From Sipunculus nudus (taxonomy: Eukaryota > Annelida > Sipuncula > Golfingiida > Sipunculidae): a stretch of 64,000 nucleotides of DNA. The stretch covers positions 95,874,723 through 95,938,722 of the forward strand of contig CM049309.1 in assembly GCA_026874595.1 (NCBI GenBank), given 5' to 3'. Within the stretch, counting starts at the first letter, position 1. Each line of letters begins with the position of its first letter. Made by a program: the position numbers and the translations under genes. The notes beneath the pieces were generated by a model. The model had not been told where the DNA came from. It did not search any database and saw only the letters and a program-made list of their open reading frames with translations. Positions 1,522-63,118 of the stretch are shown here, one piece after another.

Positions 1522-1971
1522 GTCAACGATTTTCTATCGGGAAAAGCCCCCTTGACGCTTGCGATGCGCCTGAGTGATCACATGGTGTTTATGCAACTTC
1601 AACTGTCAACATCTCCAGCTGGCTGCAAGAGAGTATCAACAGGACCGACACGCCAAGCTTCTTCCAGCAGTCGGAACACCCGTGCAGCAAGCAAAGCCAG
1701 TCCGGCCAACACAGGCCATACCAGAGTTCCAGTGGTCCTTCCGCATCCCTTCGGGCATTCTTCTTCCGTCTCCGGACAAAAGCCTTCCTTTACTCCACGT
1801 TTTAACAGTGCTTCCCAGCCCGCCAATCATGGAGGCAGGCCGCACAAAGGGCCACATGTGCCCGTGTTGGACCGTCGCACTCTAGCAGAGGCCAGTAGGA
1901 ATTTATCGCAAAAACTCAAGGAGCTTACCCAGTATACCCCGACGCCATCAACAGAAAGTACCCCTGAAGTT
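1522..1971 (+). CDS. MIDN: Midnolin exon encoding the Catch-1 segment
   Basis: This internal exon has 450 nt, 150 codons, phase 0 at both ends. The acceptor is a long T-rich tract ending in gcag and the donor is GTT|gtaagt. Its start [20 protein letters not shown], followed by MVFMQLQL, matches vertebrate midnolin as I recall it ([28 protein letters not shown]). That is the first half of the Catch domain, just after the ubiquitin-like domain. Residues 29-130 are a Ser/Pro/Arg/His-rich low-complexity linker; residues about 119-140 ([20 protein letters not shown]) look helical. In vertebrates and flies midnolin binds degron strands of nuclear proteins, including immediate-early transcription factors, and delivers them to the proteasome without ubiquitin. 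The ubiquitin-like domain must lie upstream of the window, since the preceding exon has to end in phase 0. Another frame open to 1885 is a shadow. Confidence 0.92.
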
Positions 1972-4790
1972 GTAAGTATATCTAATTTTATAAGGAATTA
2001 TCTAATTTTATAAAGAATTATCTATCTCATTTTGAATACACCATTAACTGCATGAGTTTTTTTTATGTAAATTTTACTACGCTCAGGTGGACTGAAGATT
2101 CATATTAATAAATAATTCACATTAAATGTCCACTGGTGAAATGTGTGTTGTCGAGATTACTTAACAACTGTGGCGGCAGCCTCGGTCGTTATCAGAGCTG
2201 ATTTAACCTATCATTGCAATTCCATTTTAAAAATTTCAAGAACGTGATACTTCACATGCAGTGTCATTCCTAAGTGGTCCTGGTATTTTCTCGTGTTCCC
2301 ATGGTGATCTAAAACAGGTCACAAGACGCTTTCCTGGTAAACTTGTTTTCGGGACCATCGAGTACGAAAGACATTTCTTTTCCTTTCTGAGCACAACACC
2401 GCATCCACCAAAGCCTCGTTATGAAATTTTGCTGAATAAGCAAAATCAGGTCCCGAGGCATTTGTTTTCCCCGAGCACAATTTGGCCTTTAAGTTGTTGT
2501 TTACCGGCAGAATTTCAGACGTCAGCAGTCGCCCGAGCTGCTCTTTATGTTTGTTTACCAGTCCACGGGAAAAACCAAGGGAGGCACTCGAGTGACAGTG
2601 GCCACCTTTGGTTATCATTCCAAAGCAAATTCTGACATTCTAGTGCGTCATATGCCGAGCTCCGTGGTTGCGTATCTAGCACTAAGAAGCCCCGGTTTAC
2701 TGATGGCTTATGCGCCCATTGACGTCATAGCGCTGAAGCGGTGGCCCCATGCGAGAAAACAGGCCAGTGTTTTGGTGTGAGCGATGTCTGCCACAATCCA
2801 TAATTGAACAGGGTTGATTTTCATTCTTCATAAGCGCGCTGGGCTCTTCCCAGTCCAAGTTAACTGCAGTCTCGACATTTTTGATGATGGGCGAGGCTTT
2901 GTTTATGCGACAAAAATAAAGGACGATAGGCCAGTAAACGGCTTTTACAAAAGATTCTAGCATGTCGTACAACAAGAGGCAGACCAATTTAATACATATT
3001 TCTGCTTGGTTCAATTACGCCAATTTTCCAATTGGTACACGCTCGCCAGAGGAATGGAATACTCTTATATGATTTAAAAAAACATCTGGCCAAAGATATA
3101 CCACCTTGGGCGACATTTTGGAAGGCGGCTAAGAGTGGTAGATGGTATGTGGTTTTATCGTCTGCAACGTTGCAGACGGCAAATTGCATAACAGTAACTT
3201 GTACTGGTCACAGCAGTATTGGCTGTTAGTGAAATTATTCTGTGCTAGGCAGCGTTGTTATCAGTTATAACACAATGATGGAAATTAATCTGCTGCCTGG
3301 CTGAGATTTAGCGGTTTTTATCGCCGCACGTGTGAACAGTCTACTTGGCACAGCTATAGAACTGACTCTCCTCTCCCACACTACTCTAGATAAAAGTAAA
3401 TTTTATCAGCCTGTAATCAATGCTAAAGCTTCATCCAGAACTAGGATAAAAACAAAAATTTAATCGTGTATTGGTAAGATATTATTATATTGGAATAAAG
3501 AATGACACTATTTTGTTCTTTAAAACTCGGGTAAAGTTAATCATTCTTAGTGCATTCATTGATTGATGCATATTATTAATTGTGCCTTGTTTACGTAATC
3601 GGTGAAAGTAAGAGCGATTACAGCTGTAAGTCCACATTTCCCAGGAAACATGTAGCTCCAAGGCTTGTATTTGTTCAGCTCCACCAACCGGACTGGTGGG
3701 TGATAAAGATCATCTGTGGGCTCCCGGATGTCGGATTCCTGGAAACTGGTGAACCCACGATCGCTTGCAAGTGCTTGGCTTGAACGGATTCAAATACACA
3801 AAACTGACCTGATTTCCACTGCATTCCGCCAGCACTACTTAGCAACACATTATTTTCATAACTCCCCATTCCCTTTAGAATTACTTTATTATTTTAGCAC
3901 CCAGCAACCACACTACTTGTCAATTTTCAGATGAATTATTTGAAAAGTGACGCTTAAACACCTACTGTATAACAACAGTGGATTAAATGTCCCACTGCGT
4001 TATAGTTATTGAACTGGCGACGAGGTTACGCTGAAGGTTTGATATTCACTTGATTACACGCGGCAGATAACCACGATAAACACCGCCTTATTAGAAAACA
4101 TGCTTCAGAGGGAAAAAAATTATATAATAATGGTCACCTTTGATATTTACCTTGCAACTTTGGTCATGGAGTGAATAAGCTATGCCAAGACATTAATATT
4201 GATTTCCTGTTAAATTCAATTTATTTGATAATGCTAGAATCAGTTTATCATCCCATGTAGATGGATTTAATTGTATAATTCTATTACAAGCTCAGCTTGC
4301 TTCTTAGGTTGTAAAGTATTAGTTACAATATGCACCTTTTTTGTCAGAGCAAGATCAAAATTGGTCTAATTATATACATTACATACACATTAAGTGTTAA
4401 GGGGTACACCAGAAACAACAAGTTGCTTTCTTAAAGTAGAAATGTACATGTGGTATTATTTCAGATCACAAGTTTAAAAGTAAAACAAGCCCCATGGTTC
4501 TACCTTAAATATTAATTTGCTACAATTTTTACTAATGTTGACAAATAGTGAGAGTATTACATGATGAATTTTCATAATAACATCATAGATACCTTATAAG
4601 ATTAAGATCATAAGTTAAGCATTTAACAGGAACTAATGCAGTTCAGATAGGCACCAGGTTGTATTTCTGTACCACCAGAAAGTTTGTTTCATATTCAAAG
4701 CAGAAATGCCCATCTCATCTGGCTTTGTTCAAATTGAATTTAGCCACATCATCTTTATCCATCAGTTTTACTCTAAAAGATGCCAACTGC
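1972..4790 (+). other. First part of a 14.8-kb midnolin intron
   Basis: The intron opens with gtaagtatat. A GC-richer stretch at about 2240-3250 has several overlapping open frames on both strands, but none has good splice sites or recognisable protein content. It contains a perfect TGACGTCA at 2720-2727. From 3251 to 4790 the DNA is AT-rich and holds nothing I can identify. Intron phase 0 is inferred from the flanking exons. Confidence 0.5.
2720..2727. promoter_or_regulatory. CRE-like palindrome TGACGTCA
   Basis: A second perfect CREB/ATF consensus, 749 bp into the intron after the Catch-1 exon and within the GC-richer block. A half-similar GACGTCAG lies near 2519. Regulatory use is inferred from the motif only. 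Confidence 0.3.
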
Positions 4791-10028: not shown

Positions 10029-11307
10029 TAGGTGTCCGGAGAACTCCTCCGTAACCGCTGGGTGGAATTTTACGAAACCCGGGATTATGTTCAGGTCACG
10101 TGAACTGCTGCGCCCCGATTTTGTTTTGACCTCTGACCTTTCCTCTGTGCTCTGCGTCCATTTGTGCGTCTGTTTCCACACATAAACCCACATATCTCGG
10201 GAACCGTTTGATCGATCAGGAAAATTTTTTTGCACAAATGTAGCCCTTGGAGAGCTTTATAACTTACACAAAAAATGGTGGCGCCACCTGCAACCATGTT
10301 TGCACAGTGTCCATCTGTTCGTCTGCCTTGGGTTAAAATCACTCACATCTCTGCAGTGACTTGACTAATTCACCTGAAATTTGGCATGCGTATACATCCT
10401 GGATAGCTTTTCTGATTTTGTGACAGGTGGCGCCACCTACATTCACGTTTACCCTGCAGACATCCAAGCTCATATCTCGGGAACCGTTTGACCGATCAGG
10501 AAAATTTTTTGCACAAATGTAGCCCTTGGAGAGCTTTATAACATACATCAAAAATGGTGGCGCCACCTGCAACCATGTTTGCACAGTGTCCATCTGTTTG
10601 TCTGCCTTGGGTTAAAATCACTCATATCTCTGCAGTGACTTGACTAATTCACCTGAAATTCGGCATGCGTATACATCCTGGATAGCTTTTCTGATTTTAT
10701 GACAGGTGGCGCCACCTACATTCACGTTTACGCTGCTGACATCCAAGCTCATATCTTGGGAACTGTTTGACCGATTGGGCCAAAATTTTGCATGTGTATA
10801 GATCTCACATAGCTCTTTATCATACGCAAAACTGGTGGGGCCACCTGCAGCCATTTTTGCACAGCTCCTGTCTGTCTGTCTGCCATGGGATAAAATCACT
10901 CATATCTCGGCAGTGGTTTGACATATCTGGCTAAAATTTTGCAGGTTTATACATCCCTGACAGCTATCTTGATTTTATGACAGGTGGCGCCACCTGCATT
11001 CTAGTTTATGCAGCAGACATCCAAGCTCATATCTTGGGAACCGTTTGACCGATTAGGCCAAAGTTTTGCATGTGTATAGTTCTCACATAGCTCTTTATCA
11101 TATGCAAAACTGGTGGCGTCACCTGCAACCATTTTTGCTCAGCGTCCATCTGATTGTCTGCCACGGGCTAAAATCACTCATATACATGTAGTGGTTTGAC
11201 TTATCTGCCTTAAATTTTGCATATGTATACAACTTGGATGGCTTTCTGGATTTTGTGGTAGGGGGGGCAACCTTCACACACAATTTGGCTGCAGACATCC
11301 ATGCTAA
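10029..11307. repeat. Four divergent ~280-bp modules with GGTGGCGCCACC palindromes
   Basis: Lines recur about every 280 bp: 'catatctcgggaaccgtttg' (near 10190, 10470, and degraded near 10750 and 11030), 'ggtggcgccacctgc' (near 10277, 10559, and altered near 10836 and 11112) and 'aaaatcactca' (near 10335, 10615, 10890, 11170). The first two modules are much more alike than the others. GGTGGCGCCACC is a self-complementary 12-mer. Similar text occurs inside the element at 35616 (near 35936), so this is a dispersed-element derivative. Frames on the minus strand are incidental. Confidence 0.8.
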
Positions 11308-14300
11308 TATGTTTACTGTTATGTTTACTGTAGAACAAGCCTCCTGTGTGGACAGAGTGTGACAGCAGTAAATGGTGTGTTATGTTTACTGTAGAACAAG
11401 CCTCCTGTGTTGACAGCATGTGACAGCAGTAAATGGTGTGGTATGTTAACTGTAGAGCAAGACTTCTGTATGGACAGAGTGTGACAGCAGTAAATGGTGT
11501 GTTATGTTTACTGTAGAACAAGCCTCCTGTGTGGACAGCATGTGACAGCAGTAAATGGTGTGTTATGTTTACTGTAGAACAAGCCTCCTGTGTGGACAGT
11601 GTGCGACAGCAGTAAATGGTGTGTTATGTTTTCTGTAGAACAAGCCTCCTGTGTGGACAGAGTGTGACAGCAGTAAATGGTGTGTTATGTTTTCTGTAGT
11701 ACAAGCCTCCTGTGTGGACAGCATGTGACAGCAGTAAATGGTGTGTTATGTTTACTGTAGAGGAAGACTTCTGTATGGACAGAGTGTGACAGCAGTAAAT
11801 GGTGTGTTATGTTTACTGTAGAACAAGCCTCCTGTGTGGACAGAGTGTGACAGCAGTAAATGGTGTGTTATGTTTCCTGTAGTACAAGCCTCCTGTGTGG
11901 ACAGAGTGTGACAGCAGTAAATGGTGTGTTATGTTTTCTGTAGAACAAGCCTCCTGTGTGGACAGAGTGTGACAGCAGTAAATGGTGTGTTATGTTTACT
12001 GTAGAACAAGTCTCCTGTGTGGACAGAGTGCGACAGCAGTAAATGGTGTGTTATGTTTTCTGTAGAACAAGTCTCCTGTGTGGACAGAGTGCGACAGCAG
12101 TAAATGGTGTGTTATGTTTTCTGTAGAGCAAGACTCCTGTGTGGACAGAGTGTGACAGCAGTAAATTGTGTGTTATGTTTACTGTAGAGGAAGACTTCTG
12201 TATGGACAGAGTGTGACAGCAGTAAATGGTGTGTTATGTTTACTGTAGAACAAGCCTCCTGTGTGGACAGAGTGTGACAGCAGTAAATGGTGTGTTATGT
12301 TTCCTGTAGTACAAGCCTCCTGTGTGGACAGAGTGTGACAGCAGTAAATGGTGTGTTATGTTTTCTGTAGAACAAGCCTCCTGTGTGGACAGAGTGTGAC
12401 AGCAGTAAATGGTGTGTTATGTTTACTGTAGAACAAGTCTCCTGTGTGGACAGAGTGCGACAGCAGTAAATGGTGTGTTATGTTTTCTGTAGAACAAGTC
12501 TCCTGTGTGGACAGAGTGCGACAGCAGTAAATGGTGTGTTATGTTTTCTGTAGAGCAAGACTTCTGTGTGGACAGAGTGTGACAGCAGTAAATTGTGTGT
12601 TATGTTTTCTGTAGAACAAGTCTCCTGTGTGGACAGAGTGTGACAGCAGTAAATGGTGTGTTATGTATACTGTAGAGCAAGACTCCTGTGTGGACAGAGT
12701 GCGACAGCAGTAAATGGTGTGTTATGTTTTCTGTAGAACAAGCCTCCTGTGTGGACAGCATGTGACAGCAGTAAATGGTGTGTTATGTATACTGTAGAGC
12801 AAGAATCCTGTGTGGACAGAGTGTCACAGCAGTAAATGGTGTGTTATGTTTACTGTAGAACAAGCCTCCTGTGTGGACAGAGTGCGACAGCAGTAAATGG
12901 TGTGTTATGTTTACTGTAGAACAAGCCTCCTGTGTGGACAGAGTGCGACAGCAGTAAATGGTGTGTTATGTTTACTGTAGAACAAGCGTCCTGTGTGGAC
13001 AGAGTGTGACAGCAGTAAATGGTGTGTTATGTTTACTGTAGAACAAGCCTCCTGTGTGGACAGAGTGTGACAGCAGTAAATGGTGTGTTATGTTTACTGT
13101 AGAGCAAGACTCCTGTGTGGACAGAGTGCGACAGCAGTAAATGGTGTGTTATGTTTACTGTAGAGCAAGACTTCTGTATGGACAGAGTGTGACAGCAGTA
13201 AATGGTGTGATATGTTAACTGTAGTACAAGCTTCCTGTGTGGAAAGCAAGTGACAGCAGTAAATGGTGTGTTATGTTTTCTGTAGAACAAGCCTCCTGTG
13301 TGGACAGCATGTGACAGCAGTAAATGGTGTGTTATGTTTACTGTAGAGCAAGACTCCTTTGTGGACAGCATGTGACAGCAGTAAATGGTGTGTTATGTTT
13401 TCTGTAGTACAAGCTTCCTGTGTGGACAGCAAGTGACAGCAGTAAATGGTGTGTTATGTTTTCTGTAGTACAAGCTTCCTGTGTGGACAGCAAGTGACAG
13501 CAGTAAATGGTGTGTTATGTTTTCTGTAGAACAAGCCTCCTGTGTGGACAGCATGTGACAGCAGTAAATGGTGTGTTATGTTTACTGTAGAGCAAGACTC
13601 CTGTGTGGACAGAGTGTGACAGCAGTAAATGGTGTGTTATGTTTTCTGTAGAACAAGAATCCTGTGTGGACAGCATGTGACAGCAGTAAATGTTGTGTTA
13701 TGTTTTCTGTAGAACAAGCCTCCTGTGTGGACAGCATGTGACAGCAGTAAATGGTTTGTTATGTTTACTGTAGAGCAAGCCTCCTGTGTGGACAGAGTGT
13801 GACAGCAGTAAATGGTATGTTATGTTTTCTGTAGAACAAGCTTCCTGTGTGGACAGCATGTGACAGCAGTAAATGGTGTGTTATGTTTACTGTAGAGCAA
13901 GCCTCCTGTGTGGACAGAGTGTGACAGCGGTAAATGGTGTGTTATGTTTACTGTAGAGCAAGCCTCCTGTGTGGACAGCATGTGACAGCAGTAAATGGTG
14001 TGTTATGTTTTCTGTAGAAATAGCCTCCTGTGTGGACAGCATGTGACAGCAGTAAATGGTGTGTTATGTTTACTGTAGAGCAAGACTCCTGTGTGGACAG
14101 AGTGTGACAGCAGTAAACGGTATGTTATGTTTTCTGTAGAACAAGCTTCCTGTGTGGACAGCAAGTGACAGCAGTAAATGGTGTGCTATGTTTTCTGTAG
14201 AACAAGCATCCTGTATGGACAGCAAGTGACAGCAGTAAATGGTGTGTTATGTTTACTGTAGAGCAAGACTCCTGTGTGGACAGAGTGTGACAGCAGTAAA

Positions 14301-16856
14301 TGGTATGTTATGTTTTCTGTAGAACAAGCTTCCTGTGTGGACAGCATGTGACAGCAGTAAATGGTGTGTTATGTTTACTGTAGAGCAAGCCTCCTGTGTG
14401 GACAGAGTGTGACAGCAGTAAATGGTGTGTTATGTTTTCTGTAGAACAAGAATCCTGTGTGGACAGAGTGTGACAGCAGTAAATGGTGTGTTATGTTTTC
14501 TGTAGAACAAGCCTCCTGTGTGGACAGCATGTGACAGCAGTAAATGGTGTGTTATGTTTACTGTAGAGCAAGACTCCTGTGCGGACAGAGTGCGACAGCA
14601 GTAAATGGTGTGTTTTACTGTAGAACAAGCTTCCTGTGTGGACAGCAAGTGACAGCAGTAAATGGTGTGCTATGTTTTCTGTAGAACAAGCATCCTGTGT
14701 GGACAGAGTGTGACAGCAGTAAATGGTATGTTATGTTTTCTGTAGAACAAGCTTCCTGTGTGGACAGCAAGTGACAGCAGTAAATGGTGTGCTATGTTTT
14801 CTGTAGAACAAGCATCCTGTGTGGACAGCAAGTGACAGCAGTAAATGGTGTGTTATGTTTACTGTAGAGCAAGACTTCTGTATGGACAGAGTGTGACAGC
14901 AGTAAATGGTGTGTTATGTTTACTGTAGAACAAGCCTTCTGTGTGGACAGCATGTTACAGTAGTTAATGGTGTATTATGTTTTCTGTAGAACTACCGTCC
15001 TGTGTGGACAGTGTATGACATCAGTAAATGGTGTGTTATGTTTACTGTAGAACAAGCCTCCTGTGTGGACAGAGTGTGACAACAGTAAATGGTGTGTTAT
15101 GTTTACTGTAGTACAAGCCTCCTGTGTGGACAGAGTGCGACAGCAGTAAATGGTGTGTTATGTTTACTGTAGAACAAGCCTCCTGTGTGGACAGAGTGCG
15201 ACAGCAGTAAATGGTGTGTTATGTTTTCTGTAGAACAAGCCTCCTGTGTGGACAGAGTGTGACAGCAGTAAATGGTGTGTTATGTTTACTGTAGAACAAG
15301 CCTCCTGTGTGGACAGCATGTGACAGTAGTAAATGGTGTGTTATGTTTACTGTAGAGCAAGACTCCTGTGTGTACAGAGTGTGACAGTAGTAAATGGTGT
15401 GTTATGTTTACTGAAGAGCAAGACTCCTGTGTGGACAGAGTGTGACAGCAGTAAATGGTGTGTTATGTTTACTGTAGAACAATCCTCCTGTGTGGACAGA
15501 GTGTGACAGCAGTAAATGGTGTGTTTTGTTTACTGCAGAGCAAGACTTCTGTATGGACAAAGTGTGACAGCAGTAAATGGTGTTTTGTTTACTGTAGAAC
15601 AAGCGTTCTGTGTGGACAGCATGTTACAGTAGTTAATGGTGTGTTATGTTTTCTGTAGTACAAGCCTCCTGTGTGGACAGAGTGTGACAGCAGTAAATGG
15701 TGTGTTTTGTTTATTGTAGAGCAAGACTTCTGTATGGACAGAGTGTGACAGCAGTAAATGGTGTGTTTTGTTTACTGTAGAACAAGCGTTCTGTGTGGAC
15801 AGCATGTTACAGTAGTTAATGGTGTGTTATGTTTTCTGTAGAACAAGCCTCCTGTGTGGACAGCATGTGACAGCAGTAAATGGTGTGTTTTGTTTACTGT
15901 AGAGCAAGACTTCTGTATGGACAGAGTGTGACAGCAGTAAATGGTGTGTTTTGTTTACTGTAGAACAAGCGTTCTGTGTGGACAGCATGTTACAGTAGTT
16001 AATGGTGTGTTATGTTTTCTGTAGAACAAGCCTCCTGTGTGGACAGAATGTGACAGCAGTAAATGGTGTGTTATGTTTACTGTAGAACAAGCCTCCTGTG
16101 TGGACAGTGTATGACATCAGTAAATGGTGTGTTATGTATACTGTAGAGCATGACTCCTGTGTGGACAGAGTGTGACAGCAGTAAATGGTGTGTTATGTTT
16201 ACTGAAGAGCAAGACTCCTGTGTGGACAGAGTGTGACAGCAGTAAATGGTGTGTTATGTTTACTGTAGAGCAAGACTTCTGTATGGACAGAGTGTGACAG
16301 CAGTAAATGGTGTGTTATGTTTACTGTAGAACAAGCGTTCTGTGTGGAAAGCATGTTACAGTAGTTAATGGTGTGTTATGTTTTCTGTAGAACTACCGTC
16401 CTGTGTGGACAGTGTATGACATCGGTAAATGGTGTGTTATGTATACTGTAGAGCATGACTCCTGTGTGGACAGTGTGACAGCAGTAAATGGTGTGTTATG
16501 TTTACTGTAGAGCAAGACTTCTGTATGGACAGAGTGTGACAGCAGTAAATGGTGTGTTATGTTTACTGTAGAACAAGCGTTCTGTGTGGACAGCATGTTA
16601 CAGTAGTTAATGGTGTGTTATGTTTTCTGTAGAACTACCGTCCTGTGTGGACAGTGTATGACATCAGTAAATGGTGTGTTATGTATACTGTAGAGCATGA
16701 CTCCTGTGTGGACAGAGTGTGACAGCAGTAAATGGTGTGTTATGTTTACTGTAGAACAAGCATCCTGTGTGGACAGCATGTGACAGTAGTAAATGCTGTG
16801 TTATGTTTACTGTAGAACAAACGTCCGGTTTGGACAGCGTGTGACAGCAGTAAATG
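11308..16856 (+). repeat. 61-bp minisatellite built from the second exon's acceptor and 5' end, about 90 copies
   Basis: Each unit holds ttatgtttactgtag (or ttatgttttctgtag), an acceptor-like tract, followed by aacaagcctcctgtgtgg and then acagagtgtgacagcagtaa. The last unit runs straight into the midnolin exon at 16816, where the same 41 bases are coding with six differences in the first 42. Translated after its tag, a generic unit reads NKPPVWTECDSSKW; the exon reads NKRPVWTACDSSKC. Units are highly homogeneous, with variants such as 'gcatgtgac', 'caagtgac' and 'agagcaagactt'. Larger repeats of several units exist (for example 11751-12000 resembles 12175-12430). Since 61 is not a multiple of 3, upstream units do not stay in frame with the exon. 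Confidence 0.97.
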
Positions 16857-16972
16857 CAGCAGCAACAGCAGCAGTGCCAGCAGTACAGGTGGCAGCAGTG
16901 GAGCCTATAACGGGCCAGTCATCGAGAGCATGCAGAATCATGGTGGAGGGGTTTACTCAGGAACATTCTCAG
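16816..16972 (+). CDS. MIDN: Midnolin exon, first part of the Catch-2 segment
   Basis: 157 nt, entering in phase 0 and leaving with one base of a glycine codon. I placed the start after the acceptor gtttactgtag because this is the only nearby acceptor that keeps phase with the donor at 1971; CAG acceptors at 16850-16862 would shift the frame. The product begins NKRPVWTACDSSK, then a Ser/Gly-rich linker, then PVIESMQNHGGGVYSGTFS. The last part matches vertebrate midnolin as I recall it (VIESFVNHAPGVFSGTFSG), the start of the second Catch half. The donor is TCAG|gtatgt. The first 41 bases are the final unit of the 61-bp array, and the last 36 bases are the first unit of a second array downstream. 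The identity is firm; the exact 5' edge is moderately sure. Confidence 0.85.
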
Positions 16973-17147
16973 GTATGTTGTCATTGAGATCATGGTGTAG
17001 GGTTTACTCAGGAACATTCTAAGGTATGTGGTCATTGAGATCATGGTGTAGGGTTTACTCAGGAACATTCTAAGGCATGTGGTCATTGAGATCATGGTGG
17101 AGGGGTTTACTCAGGTACATTCTCAGGTATGAGGTCATTGAGTTCAC
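16937..17147 (+). repeat. 51-52-bp repeat of the exon's 3' end and splice donor, about 4 copies
   Basis: Unit 1 is the end of the exon plus its donor (atcatggtggaggggtttac ... tcag|gtatgt). Units start at 16937, 16989, 17040 and 17091. The donor position reads tcag|gtatgt, taag|gtatgt, taag|gcatgt and tcag|gtatga in order, so at least two further copies still look like usable donors. Reading past the first donor, the frame reaches a taa at the second unit. Confidence 0.93.
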
Positions 17148-18548: not shown

Positions 18549-19910
18549 TTCCAATGGAGCTCCCAATCTGACTTGTAATTATCTGGTGTTATCTGTTAAT
18601 GACTGGTACCGGTATTATCCGAGTACATTTACCACAAGCATTACTGGTAACAAGTGACGTGTTTAAAAACAATATATATTTACAAATATGATTATGAAGA
18701 TTAAACCTGCCCTGACAAATAGAGTCAGTTGTTTTATGTCTTGATGTTGACTTTTACAGAAAAATAACGAACTGTGAACTAAATTTTATGAACTTGAATG
18801 ATGCAATAATGTTTCCTTACATTTTGCTCTGCATGATTTAAAAAATATTACAAATACTTATTAGTTTCACATTTGGAAATATGGCACAGAATAAAACTCT
18901 TACATTCTGGCGCTAGATCTCAAATTCTGCAGGTCTCATAACTCTGCAGACAGATAAATTCATATTAATTTTTAAAAGAATAAAGTACAGGTTTTTACAA
19001 AACCCACCTGAGGACACTTTGAATGCTGTCAATAATCAGTCAATTACTTGTTAAGAGAATGTGAAAATCTATAAGATAAGGCCATGCTAAGATTTGATGG
19101 TATAATAATTGAGCTAAGCTTTTCAGAATATAAATGAAAATATAAACAATGACATTAGAACTGCAAGTCAGCATTTGAAGTTCTGACGCATCTTTTTATT
19201 TCTGCAGGAATATGATCTAGAACAACTATATGATGTTCATTAAAAGCTAACGTGTGTGAGAAGGCCAAGATTTTTTTGTAAATCCATTTTTTATACATTT
19301 TTAACCAGTTGACTGTTGCATGTTAAAGACATTTTGAGTTGCTCCCACTGTCTGTTTTTGATTTAGCTGTGAAGTGTATAAATATGTTGATAATTCAACA
19401 TGTGGCCTTATAAAACCGGGATGGCAGTATGTACACCAGATAGTGGCAGAGGATGGTAAATATGCCAGGGGAGAGGAAATCAAAACAAACAGATGAAAGA
19501 AAAAGGATCATTGTGGTCTGAAACTGGAACAGACCCCCAGATATTGTGGCAAGAAAGGTCAAATTGAGTATTTTCCAAGATATATGAACTTGGTATGACA
19601 CGTGCTGGCAGAGGGTGGTAAAGCTTAAGGAATGAAGGTGACATCCTGTACTGTAGTAACAGCCCACACATATGGTTATTGTAATGGTTGGCAGGAGTTC
19701 TGACCATCAGCCAGCAGTTCAGGGTCAATAAAGGTCAAGGATATGCTTGCCAAAGGTCACCATCTCCTCCCACTTCCTGTGTGGGAGTCTTTGAGGGAGC
19801 CCTTGCCAGTAATGACAGACTGGATCATCTATCTGTGCTGGGACTGCTTTAGCTCTGGCCAAGCTACAGCGGAGCACAGGGAGGGGACCCAGGACAGTGG
19901 GTCAGCTGCT
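18549..19910. other. Intron sequence with nothing recognised
   Basis: AT-rich unique DNA. Overlapping short frames on the minus strand at 19301-19728 have no family resemblance, no splice sites and no compositional signal. The last 150 bases before the next array are GC-richer and include ordinary-looking open sequence that runs into the repeat. Confidence 0.4.
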
Positions 19911-22900
19911 CCAAACAAAGTAGTGAAAGTCCAGGTCCACCTGCACGAATGATCTAAACAAAGTAGTGAAAGTCCAGGTCCACCTGCACGAATGATCCAA
20001 ACAAAGTAGTGAAAGTCCAGGTCCACCTGCACTAATGATCCAAACAAAGTAGTGAAAGTCCAGGTCCACCTGCACTAATGATCCAAACAAAGTAGTGAAA
20101 GTCCAGGTCCACCTGCACTAATGATCTAAACAAAGTAGTGAAAGTCCAGGTCCACCTGCACTAATGATCCAAACAAAGTAGTGAAAGTCCAGGTCCACCT
20201 GCACTAATGATCTAAACAAAGTAGTGAAAGTCCAGGTCCACCTGCACTAATGATCCAAACAAAGTAGTGAAAGTCCAGGTCCACCTGCACTAATGATCCA
20301 AACAAAGTAGTGAAAGTCCAGGTCCACCTGCACGAATGATCTAAACAAAGTAGTGAAAGTCCAGGTCCACCTGCTCTAATGATCCAAACAAAGTAGTGAA
20401 AGTCCAGGTCCACCTGCACTAATGATCCAAACAAAGTAGTTAAAGTCCAGGTCCACCTGCACTAATGATCCAAACAAAGTAGTGAAAGTCCAGGTCCACC
20501 TGCACTAATGATCCAAACAAAGTAGTGAAAGTCCAGGTCCACCTGCTCTAATGATCCAAACAAAGTAGTGAAAGTCCAGGTCCACCTGCACTAATGATCC
20601 AAACAAAGTAGTGAAAGTCCAGGTCCACCTGCACTAATGATCCAAACAAAGTAGTGAAAGTCCAGGTCCACCTGCTCTAATGATCCAAACAAAGTAGTGA
20701 AAGTCCAGGTCCACCTGCTCTAATGATCCAAACAAAGTAGTGAAAGTCCAGGTCCACCTGCACTAATGATCCAAACAAAGTAGTGAAAGTCCAGGTCCAC
20801 CTGCACTAATGATCCAAACAAAGTAGTGAAAGTCCAGGTCCACCTGCTCTAATGATCCAAACAAAGTAGTGAAAGTCCAGGTCCACCTGCTCTAATGATC
20901 CAAACAAAGTAGTGAAAGTCCAGGTCCACCTGCTCTAATGATCCAAACAAAGTAGTGAAAGTCCAGGTCCACCTGCACTAATGATCCAAACAAAGTAGTG
21001 AAAGTCCAGGTCCACCTGCTCTAATGATCCAAACAAAGTAGTGAAAGTCCAGGTCCACCTGCACTAATGATCCAAACAAAGTAGTGAAAGTCCAGGTCCA
21101 CCTGCTCTAATGATCCAAACAAAGTAGTGAAAGTCCAGGTCCACCTGCTCTAATGATCCAAACAAAGTAGTGAAAGTCCAGGTCCACCTGCTCTAATGAT
21201 CCAAACAAAGTAGTGAAAGTCCAGGTCCACCTGCTCTAATGATCCAAACAAAGTAGTGAAAGTCCAGGTCCACCTGCTCTAATGATCCAAACAAAGTAGT
21301 GAAAGTCCAGGTCCACCTGCTCTAATGATCCAAACAAAGTAGTGAAAGTCCAGGTCCACCTGCACTAATGATCTAAACAAAGTAGTGAAAGTCCAGGTCC
21401 ACCTGCTCTAATGATCCAAACAAAGTAGTGAAAGTCCAGGTCCACCTGCACTAATGATCCAAACAAAGTAGTGAAAGTCCAGGTCCACCTGCTCTAATGA
21501 TCCAAACAAAGTAGTGAAAGTCCAGGTCCACCTGCACTAATGATCCAAACAAAGTAGTGAAAGTCCAGGTCCACCTGCACTAATGATCCAAACAAAGTAG
21601 TGAAAGTCCAGGTCCACCTGCACTAATGATCCAAACAAAGTAGTGAAAGTCCAGGTCCACCTGCTCTAATGATCCAAACAAAGTAGTGAAAGTCCAGGTC
21701 CACCTGCACTAATGATCCAAACAAAGTAGTGAAAGTCCAGGTCCACCTGCACTAATGATCCAAACAAAGTAGTGAAAGTCCAGGTCCACCTGCACTAATG
21801 ATCCAAACAAAGTAGTGAAAGTCCAGGTTGGCCTGCTCTAATGGTCCACACAAAGTTGTGTAAGTCCAGGCTGGCCTGCTCTAATGGTCCAAACAAAGTA
21901 GTGAAAGTCCAGGTCCACCTGCTCTAATGGTCCACACAAAGTTGTGTAAGTCCAGGTTGGCCTGCTCTAATGGTCCAAACAAAGTAGTGAAAGTCCAGGT
22001 CCACCTGCTCTAATGGTCCACACAAAGTTGTGTAAGTCCAGGCTGGCCTGCTCTCATGGTCCAAACAAAGTATTGAAAGTCCAGGTTGGCCTGCTCTAAT
22101 GGTCCACACAAAGTTGTGTAAGTCCAGGCTGGCCTGCTCTAATGGTCCAAACAAAGTAGTGAAAGTCCAGGTCCACCTGCTCTAATGGTCCACACAAAGT
22201 TGTGTAAGTCCAGGTTGGCCTGCTCTAATGGTCCAAACAAAGTAGTGAAAGTCCAGGTCCACCTGCTCTAATGGTCCACACAAAGTTGTGTAAGTCCAGG
22301 CTGGCCTGCTCTAATGGTCCAAACAAAGTAGTGAAAGTCCAGGTTGGCCTGCTCTAATGGTCCACACAAAGTTGTGTAAGTCCAGGCTGGCCTGCTCTAA
22401 TGGTCCAAACAAAGTAGTGAAAGTCCAGGTTGGCCTGCTCTAATGGTCCACACAAAGTTGTGTAAGTCCAGGTTGGCCTGCTCTAATGGTCCAAACAAAG
22501 TAGTGAAAGTCCAGGTCCACCTGCACTAATGATCCAAACAAAGTAGTGAAAGTCCAGGTTGGCCTGCTCTAATGGTCCACACAAAGTTGTGTAAGTCCAG
22601 GTTGGCCTGCTCTAATGGTCCAAACAAAGTAGTGAAAGTCCAGGTCCACCTGCACTAATGATCCAAACAAAGTAGTGAAAGTCCAGGTCCACCTGCACTA
22701 ATGATCCAAACAAAGTAGTGAAAGTCCAGGTCCACCTGCACTAATGATCCAAACAAAGTAGTGAAAGTCCAGGTCCACCTGCACTAATGATCCAAACAAA
22801 GTAGTGAAAGTCCAGGTTGGCCTGCTCTAATGGTCCACACAAAGTTGTGTAAGTCCAGGTTGGCCTGCTCTAATGGTCCAAACAAAGTAGTGAAAGTCCA

Positions 22901-25900
22901 GGTCCACCTGCACTAATGATCCAAACAAAGTAGTGAAAGTCCAGGTCCACCTGCACTAATGATCCAAACAAAGTAGTGAAAGTCCAGGTTGGCCTGCTCT
23001 AATGGTCCACACAAAGTAGTGAAAGTCCAGGTTGGCCTGCTCTAATGGTCCAAACAAAGTAGTGAAAGTCCAGGTCCACCTGCACTAATGATCCAAACAA
23101 AGTAGTGAAAGTCCAGGTTGGCCTGCTCTAATGGTCCACACAAAGTTGTGTAAGTCCAGGTTGGCCTGCTCTAATGGTCCAAACAAAGTAGTGAAAGTCC
23201 AGGTCCACCTGCACTAATGATCCAAACAAAGTAGTGAAAGTCCAGGTCCACCTGCTCTAATGATCCAAACAAAGTAGTGAAAGTCCAGGTCCACCTGCAC
23301 TAATGATCCAAACAAAGTAGTGAAAGTCCAGGTCCACCTGCACTAATGATCCAAACAAAGTAGTGAAAGTCCAGGTCCACCTGCACTAATGATCCAAACA
23401 AAGTAGTGAAAGTCCAGGTTGGCCTGCTCTAATGGTCCACACAAAGTTGTGTAAGTCCAGGCTGGCCTGCTCTAATGGTCCAAACAAAGTAGTGAAAGTC
23501 CAGGTCCACCTGCTCTAATGGTCCACACAAAGTTGTGTAAGTCCAGGTTGGCCTGCTCTAATGGTCCAAACAAAGTAGTGAAAGTCCAGGTCCACCTGCT
23601 CTAATGGTCCACACAAAGTTGTGTAAGTCCAGGCTGGCCTGCTCTCATGGTCCAAACAAAGTATTGAAAGTCCAGGTTGGCCTGCTCTAATGGTCCACAC
23701 AAAGTTGTGTAAGTCCAGGCTGGCCTGCTCTAATGGTCCAAACAAAGTAGTGAAAGTCCAGGTCCACCTGCTCTAATGGTCCACACAAAGTTGTGTAAGT
23801 CCAGGTTGGCCTGCTCTAATGGTCCAAACAAAGTAGTGAAAGTCCAGGTCCACCTGCTCTAATGGTCCACACAAAGTTGTGTAAGTCCAGGCTGGCCTGC
23901 TCTAATGGTCCAAACAAAGTAGTGAAAGTCCAGGTTGGCCTGCTCTAATGGTCCACACAAAGTTGTGTAAGTCCAGGCTGGCCTGCTCTAATGGTCCAAA
24001 CAAAGTAGTGAAAGTCCAGGTTGGCCTGCTCTAATGGTCCACACAAAGTTGTGTAAGTCCAGGTTGGCCTGCTCTAATGGTCCAAACAAAGTAGTGAAAG
24101 TCCAGGTCCACCTGCACTAATGATCCAAACAAAGTAGTGAAAGTCCAGGTTGGCCTGCTCTAATGGTCCACACAAAGTTGTGTAAGTCCAGGTTGGCCTG
24201 CTCTAATGGTCCAAACAAAGTAGTGAAAGTCCAGGTCCACCTGCACTAATGATCCAAACAAAGTAGTGAAAGTCCAGGTCCACCTGCACTAATGATCCAA
24301 ACAAAGTAGTGAAAGTCCAGGTCCACCTGCACTAATGATCCAAACAAAGTAGTGAAAGTCCAGGTCCACCTGCACTAATGATCCAAACAAAGTAGTGAAA
24401 GTCCAGGTTGGCCTGCTCTAATGGTCCACACAAAGTTGTGTAAGTCCAGGTTGGCCTGCTCTAATGGTCCAAACAAAGTAGTGAAAGTCCAGGTCCACCT
24501 GCACTAATGATCCAAACAAAGTAGTGAAAGTCCAGGTCCACCTGCACTAATGATCCAAACAAAGTAGTGAAAGTCCAGGTTGGCCTGCTCTAATGGTCCA
24601 CACAAAGTAGTGAAAGTCCAGGTTGGCCTGCTCTAATGGTCCAAACAAAGTAGTGAAAGTCCAGGTCCACCTGCACTAATGATCCAAACAAAGTAGTGAA
24701 AGTCCAGGTTGGCCTGCTCTAATGGTCCACACAAAGTTGTGTAAGTCCAGGTTGGCCTGCTCTAATGGTCCAAACAAAGTAGTGAAAGTCCAGGTCCACC
24801 TGCACTAATGATCCAAACAAAGTAGTGAAAGTCCAGGTCCACCTGCACTAATGATCCAAACAAAGTAGTGAAAGTCCAGGTTGGCCTGCTCTAATGGTCC
24901 ACACAAAGTTGTGTAAGTCCAGGCTGGCCTGCTCTAATGGTCCAAACAAAGTAGTGAAAGTCCAGGTCCACCTGCTCTAATGGTCCACACAAAGTTGTGT
25001 AAGTCCAGGTTGGCCTGCTCTAATGGTCCAAACAAAGTAGTGAAAGTCCAGGTCCACCTGCTCTAATGGTCCACACAAAGTTGTGTAAGTCCAGGCTGGC
25101 CTGCTCTAATGGTCCAAACAAAGTAGTGAAAGTCCAGGTTGGCCTGCTCTAATGGTCCACACAAAGTTGTGTAAGTCCAGGCTGGCCTGCTCTAATGGTC
25201 CAAACAAAGTAGTGAAAGTCCAGGTTGGCCTGCTCTAATGGTCCACACAAAGTTGTGTAAGTCCAGGTTGGCCTGCTCTAATGGTCCAAACAAAGTAGTG
25301 AAAGTCCAGGTCCACCTGCACTAATGATCCAAACAAAGTAGTGAAAGTCCAGGTTGGCCTGCTCTAATGGTCCACACAAAGTTGTGTAAGTCCAGGTTGG
25401 CCTGCTCTAATGGTCCAAACAAAGTAGTGAAAGTCCAGGTCCACCTGCACTAATGATCCAAACAAAGTAGTGAAAGTCCAGGTCCACCTGCACTAATGAT
25501 CCAAACAAAGTAGTGAAAGTCCAGGTCCACCTGCACTAATGATCCAAACAAAGTAGTGAAAGTCCAGGTCCACCTGCACTAATGATCCAAACAAAGTAGT
25601 GAAAGTCCAGGTTGGCCTGCTCTAATGGTCCACACAAAGTTGTGTAAGTCCAGGTTGGCCTGCTCTAATGGTCCAAACAAAGTAGTGAAAGTCCAGGTCC
25701 ACCTGCTCTAATGGTCCACACAAAGTTGTGTAAGTCCAGGTTGGCCTGCTCTAATGGTCCAAACAAAGTAGTGAAAGTCCAGGTTGGCCTGCTCTAATGG
25801 TCCACACAAAGTTGTGTAAGTCCAGGTTGGCCTGCTCTAATGGTCCAAACAAAGTAGTGAAAGTCCAGGTTGGCCTGCTCTAATGGTCCAAACAAAGTAG

Positions 25901-26930
25901 TGAAAGTCCAGGTTGGCCTGCTCTAATGGTCCACACAAAGTTGTGTAAGTCCAGGTTGGCCTGCTCTAATGGTCCAAACAAAGTAGTGAAAGTCCAGGTT
26001 GGCCTGCTCTAATGGTCCAAACAAAGTAGTGAAAGTCCAGGTCCACCTGCTCTAATGGTCCACACAAAGTTGTGTAAGTCCAGGTTGGCCTGCTCTAATG
26101 GTCCAAACAAAGTAGTGAAAGTCCAGGTTGGCCTGCTCTAATGGTCCACACAAAGTTGTGTAAGTCCAGGTTGGCCTGCTCTAATGGTCCAAACAAAGTA
26201 GTGAAAGTCCAGGTCCACCTGCTCTAATGGTCCACACAAAGTTGTGTAAGTCCAGGTTGGCCTGCTCTAATGGTCCAAACAAAGTAGTGAAAGTCCAGGT
26301 CCACCTGCTCTAATGGTCCACACAAAGTTGTGTAAGTCCAGGTTGGCCTGCTCTAATGGTCCACACAAAGTTGTGTAAGTCCAGGTTGGCCTGCTCTAAT
26401 GGTCCAAACAAAATAGTGAAAGTCCAGGTTGGCCTGCTCTAATGGTCCACACAAAGTTGTGTAAGTCCAGGTTGGCCTGCTCTAATGGTCCAAACAAAGT
26501 AGTGAAAGTCCAGGTCCACCTGCTCTAATGGTCCAAACAAAGTAGTGAAAGTCCAGGTCCACCTGCACTAATGATCTAAACAAAGTAGTGAAAGTCCAGG
26601 TCCACCTGCACTAATGATCCAAACAAAGTAGTGAAAGTCCAGGTTGGCCTGCTCTAATGGTCCAAACAAAGTAGTGAAAGTCCAGGTCCACCTGCTCTAA
26701 TGGTCCACACAAAGTTGTGTAAGTCCAGGCTGGCCTGCTCTAATTATCGAAACAAAGTAATGTAAGTCCAGGCTGGCCTGCTCTAATTATCAAAATCAAG
26801 AAATGTAAGTCCAGGTTGGCCTGCTCTAATTATCGAAACAAAGTAATGTAAGTCCAGGTTGGCCTGCTCTAATTATCCAAACAAAGTAATGTAAGTCCAG
26901 GCTGGCCTGCTCTAATGATCAAAACTAAAA
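19911..26930. repeat. 43-bp minisatellite, about 163 copies, with higher-order structure
   Basis: Two unit types share a 43-bp period. Type A has ccaaacaaagtagtgaaagt with ggtccacctgcactaatgat; type B has ccacacaaagttgtgtaagt with ggttggcctgctctaatggt. From 19911 to about 21830 nearly all units are type A. From there to 26740 types A and B are interspersed. A block with a rare 'ctctcatgg' plus 'gtattgaaag' unit at about 22050 recurs exactly 1591 bp later (37 x 43). The final units (26740-26930) are a diverged third form with 'aattatcgaaac'. Minus-strand frames with repeated GPLEQ/GQPGL motifs are incidental. Confidence 0.97.
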
Positions 26931-34767: not shown

Positions 34768-35324
34768 GTGGTAGTTACCATTGCTTGTCACAGTTTTTGT
34801 GTGCTAAGATGTGGTAGTTACCTGTGCTTGTCACGGTTTTTGTGTGCTAAGATGTGGTAGTTACCGTTGCTTGTCACAGTTTTTCTGTGCTAAGATGTGG
34901 TAGTTACCGTTGCTTGTCAGTTTTTGTGTGCTTAGATGTGGTAGTTACCTGTGCTTGTCACGGTTTTTGTGTGCTAAGATGTGGTAGTTACCGTTGCTTA
35001 TCACAGTTTTTGTGTGCTAAGATGTGGTAGTTACCGTTGCTTGTCACGGTTTTTGTGTGCTAAGATGTGGTAGTTACTGTTGCTTGTCACAGTTTTTGTG
35101 TGCTAAGATGTGGTAGTTACTGTTGCTTGTCACAGTTTTTGTGTGCTAAGATGTGGTAGTTACCGTTGCTTGTCACAGTTTTTGTGTGCTAAGATGTGGT
35201 AGTTACTGTTGCTTGTCACAGTTTTTGTGTGCTAAGATGTGGTAGTTACCGTTGCTTGTCACAGTTTTTGTGTGCTAAGATGTGGTACTTACTGTTGCTT
35301 GTCACGGTTTTTGTGTGCTAAGAT
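34768..35324. repeat. 43-bp minisatellite, about 13 copies, 24 bp before an exon
   Basis: Unit gtggtagttaccgttgcttg, tcacagtttttgtgtgctaa, gat. Variants are acc(t)gtgcttg and cacgg. The array ends 24 bp before the acceptor of the third midnolin exon, so the branch-point region is close to or inside its last unit. Unrelated in sequence to the other 43-bp array at 19911. Confidence 0.97.
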
Positions 35325-35348: not shown

Positions 35349-35516
35349 GTACACTGAACCCAGCCTTGCAGGATAAAGATGGCCGACTAAAACGAAACAC
35401 GAGCACGATCATTCACATTCTAAATGATCTCCTGGGAGCTACCCCTCAGTACAGCCATCAGCTGGGTCATCAGCGAGAACAGAGAGATAGGATTCACCAC
35501 CGATTCCATGCCAACC
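35349..35516 (+). CDS. MIDN: Midnolin exon, second part of the Catch-2 segment
   Basis: 168 nt. The acceptor is ttttcttgtacag and the donor is AACC|gtaagt. It enters with two bases (gt) that complete the glycine codon begun at 16972, giving the uninterrupted GTFSGTLNPALQDKDGR across the junction. It continues with LKRNTSTIIHILNDLLGATP, then QYSHQLGHQREQRDRIHHRF. Vertebrate midnolin as I recall it has [32 protein letters not shown], the second Catch half with its amphipathic helix. The exon leaves with one base, so the next exon must begin with two. The surrounding longer open frame (35282-35770) is only read-through of flanking intron. Confidence 0.93.
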
Positions 35517-57282: not shown

Positions 57283-60200
57283 CTAGTCTCCCTGTCTGAA
57301 AAAAACATGACCAAACTGAGGTATAGGAAAACCTGTCTCCCTGTCTGATAAAAAACATGACCAAACTGAGGTATAAGAAAACCTGTCTCCCTGTCTGATA
57401 AAAACATGACCAAACTGAGGTATAAGAAAACCTGTCTCCCTGTCTGATAAAAACATGACCAAACTGAGGTATAAGAAAACCTGTCTCCCTGTCTGATAAA
57501 AAACATGACCAAACTGAGGTATAGGAAAACCTGTCTCCCTGTCTGATAAAAAACATGACCAAACTGAGGTATAAGAAAACCTGTCTCCCTGTCTGATAAA
57601 AACATGACCAAACTGAGGTATAAGAAAACCTGTCTCCCTGTCTGATAAAAACATGACCAAACTGAGGTATAGGAAAACCTGTCTCCCTGTCTGATAAAAA
57701 CATGACCAAACTGAGGTATAAGAAAACCTGTCTCCCTGTCTGATAAAAACATGACCAAACTGAGGTATAAGAAAACCTGTCTCCCTGTCTGATAAAAAAC
57801 ATGACCAAACTGAGGTATAGGAAAACCTGTCTCCCTGTCTGATAAAAAACATGACCAAACTGAGGTATAAGAAAACCTGTCTCCCTGTCTGATAAAAACA
57901 TGACCAAACTGAGGTATAAGAAAACCTGTCTCCCTGTCTGATAAAAACATGACCAAACTGAGGTATAGGAAAACCTGTCTCCCTGTCTGAAAAAAACATG
58001 ACCAAACTGAGGTATAGGAAAACCTGTCTCCCTGTCTGATTAAAACATGACCAAACTGAGGTATAGGAAAACCTGTCTCCCTGTCTGATAAAAACATGAC
58101 CAAACTGAGGTATAGGAAAACCTGTCTCCCTGTCTGATAAAAACATGACCAAACTGAGGTATAGGAAAACCTGTCTCCCTGTCTGATAAAAACATGACCA
58201 AATTGAGGTATAAGAAAACCTGTCTCCCTGTCTGATAAAAACATGACCAAACTGAGGTATAAGACAACCTGTCTCCCTGTCTGATAAAAACATGACCAAA
58301 CTGAGGTATAAGAAAACCTGTCTCCCTGTCTGATAAAAACATGACCAAATTGAGGTATAAGAAAACCTGTCTCCCTGTCTGAAAAAAACATGACCAAACT
58401 GAGGTATAGGAAAACCTGTCTCCCTGTCTGAAAAAAACATGACCAAACTGAGGTATAGGAAAACCTGTCTCCCTGTCTGATTAAAACATGACCAAACTGA
58501 GGTATAGGAAAACCTGTCTCCCTGTCTGATAAAAAACATGACCAAACTGAGGTATAAGAAAACCTGTCTCCCTGTCTGATAAAAACATGACCAAACTGAG
58601 GTATAAGAAAACCTGTCTCCCTGTCTGATAAAAACATGACCAAACTGAGGTATAGGAAAACCTGTCTCCCTGTCTGAAAAAAACATGACCAAACTGAGGT
58701 ATAGGAAAACCTGTCTCCCTGTCTGATTAAAACATGACCAAACTGAGGTATAGGAAAACCTGTCTCCCTGTCTGATAAAAACATGACCAAACTGAGGTAT
58801 AGGAAAACCTGTCTCCCTGTCTGATAAAAACATGACCAAACTGAGGTATAGGAAAACCTGTCTCCCTGTCTGATAAAAACATGACCAAATTGAGGTATAA
58901 GAAAACCTGTCTCCCTGTCTGATAAAAACATGACCAAACTGAGGTATAAGACAACCTGTCTCCCTGTCTGATAAAAACATGACCAAACTGAGGTATAAGA
59001 AAACCTGTCTCCCTGTCTGATAAAAACATGACCAAATTGAGGTATAAGAAAACCTGTCTCCCTGTCTGATAAAAACATGACCAAACTGAGGTATAAGAAA
59101 ACCTGTCTCCCTGTCTGATAAAAACATGACCAAACTGAGGTATAGGAAAACCTGTCTCCCTGTCTGAAAAAAACATGACCAAACTGAGGTATAGGAAAAC
59201 CTGTCTCCCTGTCTGATTAAAACATGACCAAACTGAGGTATAGGAAAACCTGTCTCCCTGTCTGATAAAAACATGACCAAACTGAGGTATAGGAAAACCT
59301 GTCTCCCTGTCTGATAAAAACATGACCAAACTGAGGTATAAGAAAACCTGTCTCCCTGTCTGATAAAAACATGACCAAACTGAGGTATAGGAAAACCTGT
59401 CTCCCTGTCTGATAAAAACATGACCAAACTGAGGTATAGGAAAACCTGTCTCCCTGTCTGATAAAAAACATGACCAAACTGAGGTATAAGAAAACCTGTC
59501 TCCCTGTCTGATAAAAACATGACCAAACTGAGGTATAAGAAAACCTGTCTCCCTGTCTGATAAAAACATGACCAAACTGAGGTATAGGAAAACCTGTCTC
59601 CCTGTCTGATAAAAACATGACCAAATTGAGGTATAAGAAAACCTGTCTCCCTGTCTGATAAAAACATGACCAAACTGAGGTATAAGACAACCTGTCTCCC
59701 TGTCTGATAAAAACATGACCAAACTGAGGTATAAGAAAACCTGTCTCCCTGTCTGATAAAAACATGACCAAACTGAGGTATAAGAAAACCTGTCTCCCTG
59801 TCTGATAAAAAACATGACCAAACTGAGGTATAGGAAAACCTGTCTCCCTGTCTGATAAAAAACATGACCAAACTGAGGTATAAGAAAACCTGTCTCCCTG
59901 TCTGATAAAAACATGACCAAACTGAGGTATAAGAAAACCTGTCTCCCTGTCTGATAAAAACATGACCAAACTGAGGTATAGGAAAACCTGTCTCCCTGTC
60001 TGATAAAAACATGACCAAATTGAGGTATAGGAAAACCTGTCTCCCTGTCTGAAAAAAAACATGACCAAACTGAGGTATAGGAAAACCTGTCTCCCTGTCT
60101 GATAAAAACATGACCAAACTGAGGTATAAGAAAACCTGTCTCCCTGTCTGATAAAAACATGACCAAACTGAGGTATAAGAAAACCTGTCTCCCTGTCTGA

Positions 60201-62500: not shown

Positions 62501-63118
62501 AACCATGACCATATATGCCTCACAAGATTATATTTAATACAGAATCAGTTGTACTTATGACAAACAGAAAAAGAAATCAAGAACAAACAGAAAAAGAAAT
62601 CAAGAAAACAATGGTTGATTTATTAGAGAGTAATCAGTAAATTATTGAAAGGACCAACTATTTCCCAAACTAAGTAATGATTTGTTGACATATTTCATAA
62701 TCACAGTTAATTACACAATAATTACAATAGGCTTATCAGTGTATGTGATACTGGCAAGTTATAAAAAGTCCATCAGCTTCCCTTGTTTCTATTATAATAC
62801 AGCAAACTTAATAACGGTGGTGGAGCTTTTATCTGCATTGTCCTTGAAGCTGACAGGTATCCTGCAGTACCCCAGATACTGGACAGACACTGATGTTTAT
62901 TAAAGACTAGCATTCACTCTCAAGACCATTCAGATGAGGCCACTTCTGGAATGAATGACAAATGTTAGTTTTGCTGCAGGCAGACATTCATACATACCAG
63001 GAGGAGTGGCCTGTTAGGCGAGACAAAAGATGCTGTACAAAACATGGAGGATTAACGTGTAGGAGTTGTTGTGTTGTAGGATGTGTGTGGGAAGGCCCAC
63101 CTGTCTCTCATAATCAGG
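62501..63118. other. Unique sequence after the 49-bp array
   Basis: Contains two copies of acaaacagaaaaagaaatca near 62560-62604 and otherwise AT-rich text. No exon signal was recognised before about 63119. Confidence 0.45.

Follow-up and report, generated by a model that had tools for sequence, protein, structure and literature searches.

Midnolin exons and the arrays at the edges of exon B

The analysed stretch of DNA, a window of 64,000 nucleotides from the genome of Sipunculus nudus, carries three exons of a midnolin gene, the second of which, exon B, is bordered by tandem arrays at both of its edges (Table 1). Joined in phase, exons A, B and C read ...TPEV|NKRPVWTACDSSK...GTFSG|TLNPALQDKDGR..., and a phmmer search of the PDB with the joined protein gave as best match 8vqp, an EGR1-MIDN construct (E 2.5e-24), which covered residues 1-33, encoded by exon A, and residues 182-238, encoded by exons B and C. 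The joined protein was without a family match in Pfam. In a genome search with the three exons, matches were obtained at the window locus and, elsewhere, only two weak ones (E 2.2 and E 4.5) besides one array unit (E 3.2). The left edge of exon A is a putative one, placed by means of TTTTTTGCAG|GTC. We take the matched midnolin stretch to be the one named Catch or Catch-2; its first part comes from exon B and the remainder from exon C. Midnolin has an N-terminal ubiquitin-like domain and a C-terminal helix, neither of which was found with short motifs in the window and in two 5-kb stretches outside it, and the exons for these parts may lie elsewhere.

Table 1. Positions in the window of the midnolin exons and of the arrays at the edges of exon B.
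Feature	Position	Strand	Description
Midnolin exon A	1522..1971	+	Phase-0 end, donor GTT|GTAAGT; basis: translation, in-phase join, PDB match (first part), genome match 1-150
61-bp acceptor-edge array	11317..16856	+	91 units of 20 bp acceptor-like and 41 bp exon-start-like sequence; basis: TRF and unit phasing
Last unit of the 61-bp array	16796..16856	+	Genuine acceptor (AG at 16814-16815) followed by the initial 41 coding bases of exon B
Midnolin exon B	16816..16972	+	157 nt; entered in phase 0 and left in phase 1; donor CAG|GTATGT
51/52-bp donor-edge array	16937..17146	+	4.1 copies of the terminal ~36 bases of exon B with the GTATGT donor; the end of exon B itself forms the first copy
Midnolin exon C, matched part	35349..35461	+	Acceptor TTTTCTTGTACAG; 3' limit is the end of the match

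The larger array lies within one existing intron, between exons A and B, and its terminal unit runs into exon B. TRF reported a period of 61 with 91.0 copies and 90% matches, and we located 91 acceptor cores, spaced by exactly 61 bp in 87 of 90 cases. Each unit consists of 20 bp ending approximately in GTTTACTGTAG, followed by 41 bp that resemble the start of exon B; the acceptor AG was intact in 91/91 units, and a GT followed the ATG at the end of the 41-bp part in 88/91. Mean pairwise identity among units was 0.905, with 25 of the 61 columns invariant (83 units) and the acceptor CTGTAG as the least variable 6-nt window (lowest of 61 windows). With regard to a boundary unit left out of homogenisation, the exon unit ranked 8th lowest of 85 in mean identity to the other units, and further outliers sit inside the array. 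When the units were read as 13 residues, 40 distinct peptides were obtained, with a stop in 8/91. In a BLAST search of the 1.43-Gb genome with the exon as query, in which one candidate region was scored and very common words were skipped, all of the 89 matches listed lay at the window locus, and a dispersed satellite captured by the exon was rejected on this ground. Upstream, a 278-bp tandem repeat of 4.0 copies (10191-11310) adjoins the 61-bp array, whose left edge begins a few bases from the end of that repeat, in CATGCTAATATG, which is similar to the 278-bp unit.

At the opposite side of exon B, the 51/52-bp array contains four donor-like sites, three with GT (scores of 9.6, 9.5 and 8.0) and one with GC. 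As computed, use of the second or third donor copy would add an in-frame TAA, and use of the fourth donor-like site would add TAA together with a phase shift. The repeated sequence encodes GVYSGTFSG, which is conserved with human midnolin, and this points clearly to the exon as the source of the donor-edge array. Among the best candidates of a genome search that skipped very common words, the 51/52-bp array was not found elsewhere. Thus, at both edges of exon B, tandem units span the intron-exon boundary with a splice signal and coding bases, and the arrays adjoin a genuine exon that is itself the terminal unit of the 61-bp array and the first copy of the 51/52-bp array. A 43-bp array of 13 units (34768-35324) stops 24 bases before the acceptor of exon C; its unit contains the acceptor-like TTGCTTGTCACAG, perhaps a degenerate relative of the acceptor of exon C.

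A preliminary description of the sequence had named the gene as midnolin, which the PDB match bore out, and had described an array built from the acceptor and the coding start of the exon itself, as TRF and unit phasing confirmed. The count of about 90 copies given there became 91 with the exon's own unit included, and the 3' edge of exon B, also repeated, had been missed, one repeated edge having been seen. The description correctly gave six differences in the first 42 coding bases, three of them synonymous; five fall in the 41-bp part and one is the base after ATG. As a correction to it, the exact peptide NKPPVWTECDSSK is encoded by only 12/91 units.

Acceptor choice, predicted products and the start of exon B

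Splice sites were scored with human acceptor and donor matrices; on this scale, 80/90 upstream acceptors scored equal to or higher than the real one, many of them being identical to it, as had been proposed from the sequence, whereas the donors of the units, which had been called weak, were not especially so and averaged 6.9 (n=88) compared with 6.0 for exon A and 9.6 for exon B. The proposal that only the last acceptor joins without an early stop also stood, since 1/91 acceptors was open to the donor at 16972. Splicing exon A in silico to each upstream acceptor in turn (n=90), with reading continued towards 16972, always gave a stop, at a distance of 1-39 codons (median 29), and one 41-nt unit included as a microexon led to a stop in 85/88 cases, 77 of the 85 at the codon formed by the junction with exon B, with three of the 88 products open through exon B. 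Nearly all products of the upstream acceptors would thus carry early stops.

Acceptor strength was not correlated with position in the array (rho -0.008, p 0.94); the acceptors of the last 15 units averaged 6.46 compared with 7.07 in the others (p 0.10), and a weakening of decoys near the exon by selection was not found in these scores. Unit 90, which adjoins the exon, is without a donor GT. This loss and the least variable CTGTAG, each a single observation, could hint at selection. Overall, the sequence analysis gave no indication that decoys are selected against, nor any positive evidence that the array controls splicing.

Among 30 AGs listed in 16690-16936, three gave an open exon in the right phase, with exon starts at 16816, 16927 and 16936. 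Their acceptor scores, from the human matrix, were 6.3, -3.6 and -0.5, respectively, and the AG for 16816 has, by this scoring, by far the best acceptor context of the three. A start at 16860 was rejected, as it breaks the phase with exon A, runs into a stop and has a poor context (-3.4). The preliminary description had held open a start at this position with the 41 bases never exonic; phase and stop disfavour it, and so does the coding signature of these bases. Three coding differences are private to the exon unit (positions 6, 12 and 15); they were absent from the 83 units counted and also, by eye, from the first unit and six indel-adjacent units. All three are third-position and synonymous changes. 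Synonymous changes amounted to 22/117 of the possible single changes and to 4/32 of the array site-alleles; the comparison of 3/3 in the exon with 4/32 in the array gave a Fisher p of 0.005, a value that rests on three changes. From this difference, the first 41 bases look coding, that is, they appear to have been read in frame while the array was not. Taking frame and sequence together, we infer that 16816 is the acceptor in use.

Exon-edge arrays elsewhere in the genome

Arrays at exon edges were also searched for in a sample of 18 distinct exons, made up of 13 of 75 myosin-head matches and 5 of 21 ferritin matches, with flanks of mostly 150-300 bp and with exon edges taken as the edges of the profile matches, which makes them approximate. 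Of the 21 ferritin matches, 15 lie on small contigs, and one chromosomal match lies outside the sample. Edge arrays were absent at 16/18 of the exons sampled. The two others belong to the ferritin paralogs L125 and L126, both on contig C10, which carry arrays of about 40 bp repeating the donor edge of their own exon; the nearest ferritin in the PDB is 6LPE, from the sipunculan Phascolosoma esculenta.

In L125 (C10:16239429 region), the exon ends with CATGGTGACAAGCAG|GTAAAT at position 1806 and the array spans 1806-3321. The 22-mer spanning this donor had 32 further matches with <=5 edits in 1.5 kb, compared with a mean of 0.02 in 50 shuffles, and these copies belong to an array of 41-bp units followed by one of 40-bp units, which reaches past the end of the 1.5-kb stretch. 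CAG|GT sites numbered 30, of which 26 scored equal to the donor of the exon and one higher. The 40-bp array continues at least to C10:16241439, and a genome search gave no other genomic match. L126 (453-792 in L126+L157; C10:16249494 region) has nine copies, the exon's own included, with <=5 substitutions. In a further paralog, L127 (C14), the exon ends with CATGGGGACAAGCAG|GTGAAT and no second copy was present in the 184 nt of intron searched; this same exon end without an array argues that the ferritin exon edge preceded the array. The arrays of L125 and L126, 10 kb apart, may share an origin.

These cases establish that exon-edge arrays recur; a preference of arrays for splice sites is not claimed, as 2/36 approximate exon edges does not exceed the share of sequence that lies in arrays (7% in our samples; 13.24% by TRF). 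A comparison of 27 arrays, that of midnolin included, with random pieces gave p values of 0.26 for acceptors and 0.03 for donors and hence no convincing splice-derived excess. Tandem repeats occupied 54% of the window compared with 7% of twenty 10-kb samples at hand-picked round coordinates, and the published description of the S. nudus genome gives a TRF cover of 13.24% (PMC10212961). The arrays of the window include one with a unit of 86 bp and 81.6 copies (19910-26925) and another with a unit of 49 bp and 105.9 copies (57286-62501). The end of C4 is 1.6 Mb away, and a simple subtelomeric gradient was rejected, with array cover nearby being patchy rather than graded: array bases ranged from 0/5000 and 0/2000 (twice) to 1538/5000 and 1997/2000.

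Protein searches bearing on the kind of animal gave little. A GFP-family protein, sought with a lancelet in mind, had no match, nor had the molluscan haemocyanin domain, both weak negatives, as control genomes were likewise silent. Muscle myosin compared with the PDB did not tell phyla apart (squid 7.9e-57, scallop 2.7e-56, Myosin-6 6.4e-56), and haemerythrin had three matches, all of them on small rather than chromosomal contigs, which speaks neither for nor against a sipunculan, since some exons may be missed. The small contigs of the assembly yielded a separate observation. C60, C61, C62, C66, C72, C74, C75 and C89 together contain nine bacterial COX1 genes of full length, whose scores are almost the same, and the COX1 of C60 has <=59% identity to the best 80 GTDB loci. 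Cobionts far from the compared GTDB genomes seem to be present in the assembly.

Origin of the arrays and comparison with known systems

From the observed anatomy, reading frames, coding signature of the 41 bases, single locus in the genome search and recurrence in two ferritin paralogs, we read the 61-bp array, with a probability of about 0.83, as a minisatellite of the kind called a 'mirage', grown locally from seeds on exon edges and tolerated as exon definition favours the last acceptor. A stretch of 61 bp over the intron-exon boundary, with 20 bp of acceptor and 41 bp of coding start, would have been tandemly duplicated beside the exon and brought to 91 units by ordinary minisatellite turnover, presumably through slippage or unequal exchange, and the smaller array would have arisen from the donor edge of the same exon. 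The copies would behave as intron. Exons flanked by long introns are recognised as whole units, and such exon definition most likely selects the real exon B: the last acceptor alone would be paired with the strong donor at 16972 over a normal 157 nt and a real exon body, and the upstream acceptors would lead to longer exons or to 41-nt microexons just 20 nt apart.

The order of events could have been the reverse, exon B having begun further 3' and later acquired its acceptor and first 41 bases from the last unit of a minisatellite already present in the intron. The printed alignments of human midnolin chains stop short of NKRPVWTACDSSK, which suggests that this segment is not conserved as far as human and could be a late addition, as such a history would have it. 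Nevertheless, the private changes of the exon unit are all synonymous, whereas array variation is unbiased toward synonymous or third positions, which argues that the 41 bases have long been read in frame; moreover, the genome search found the 61-bp array nowhere else, the array at the donor edge of exon B consists of human-conserved sequence for which the exon is clearly the source, and a ferritin paralog has the exon end without the array. We therefore consider an array that came before the exon start to be improbable. Misassembly, which could inflate or invent repeats, is a known hazard of tandem arrays, and a lancelet mirage was reported as misassembled in the draft genome (PMC3087553); the published S. 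nudus assembly, however, is described as built from HiFi reads with a contig N50 of 29.46 Mb (PMC10212961), and units as diverse as those found here (identity 0.905, 40 peptides) in a 5.5-kb array should be resolvable, and an artefact is hardly credible.

A functional role, in which decoy acceptors and donors are kept so as to lower or regulate midnolin output via unproductive splicing with poison microexons, would fit the stops brought in by nearly all single microexons, the intact AG of every unit and the low variability of the acceptor hexamer. Many columns of the unit are invariant anyway, however, acceptor strength is without a gradient, early stops are expected from almost any non-coding sequence in the wrong frame, and comparable arrays occur in ferritin genes, all of which make such a role very improbable. 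Among the three readings offered by the preliminary description, a tolerated expansion is hence the best supported, while the splice-control device and the source of poison exons are without positive evidence, in line with the lack of a trend in strength.

About 90 near-identical acceptors beside the required one constitute a natural experiment on splice-site choice. As the 61 bp are almost identical from copy to copy, the cue that distinguishes the last acceptor should lie mainly outside the unit, in the exon body, the downstream donor or the position. In S. nudus, the amplified edges are the acceptor and donor sides of midnolin exon B and the donor side of an exon in each of two ferritin paralogs; mirages in two unrelated genes of an annelid suggest that they are no lancelet peculiarity, and they offer material to test intron gain by tandem duplication. 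It is conceivable, though rather doubtful, that exon edges are recurrent minisatellite seeds in S. nudus and a possible steady source of microexons, cryptic splice sites and new introns by which gene output is remodelled or tuned, in which case mirages would be a general feature of minisatellite-prone animal genomes, beyond lancelets alone.

The term mirage was introduced from lancelets for minisatellites of intron-exon boundaries (PMC3087553). According to that report, they affect either exon edge, with units of 150-160 bp, six and three in two haplotypes, in BflGb6 and units of 10-72 bp in Adh3, and have been proposed as a route to new introns; RT-PCR suggests that splicing is undisturbed (PMC3087553; also PMC3902484), and TnC and PGBD5 are given as additional cases (PMC3902484). 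In the literature on such arrays, taken by title or the start of the abstract, no mirage outside lancelets was found. Human minisatellites of a related form have been described. In IFI6, a minisatellite at an exon edge repeats donors, and two downstream units are used, giving three mRNAs (PMC4526556); the likeness lies in the repetition of a splice site at an exon edge, whereas the main midnolin array repeats an acceptor and the ferritin arrays, known from sequence alone, repeat donors. In human segmental duplications, internal tandem repeats situated at exon-intron boundaries, with an average of four units of 30 bp, are reported with transcript changes (PMC2812944); they too are boundary minisatellites, able to give rise to cryptic splice sites and to new introns, while the midnolin array sits in one existing intron.

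The lancelet mirages share with midnolin the tandem units that span a splice site and coding bases, the splice signals kept in many copies, and the possible involvement of the acceptor or the donor edge. With respect to the 150-160 bp units of BflGb6, six and three in number, midnolin has 91 acceptor units of 61 bp, and, compared with the lancelet cases as a whole, it is hosted by an annelid of the Sipuncula, affects both edges of one exon and is so far seen in genomic sequence only. The kind is thus already known from lancelets, and what is new is the annelid host, the roughly 90 acceptor copies and the presence of arrays at both edges of one exon.
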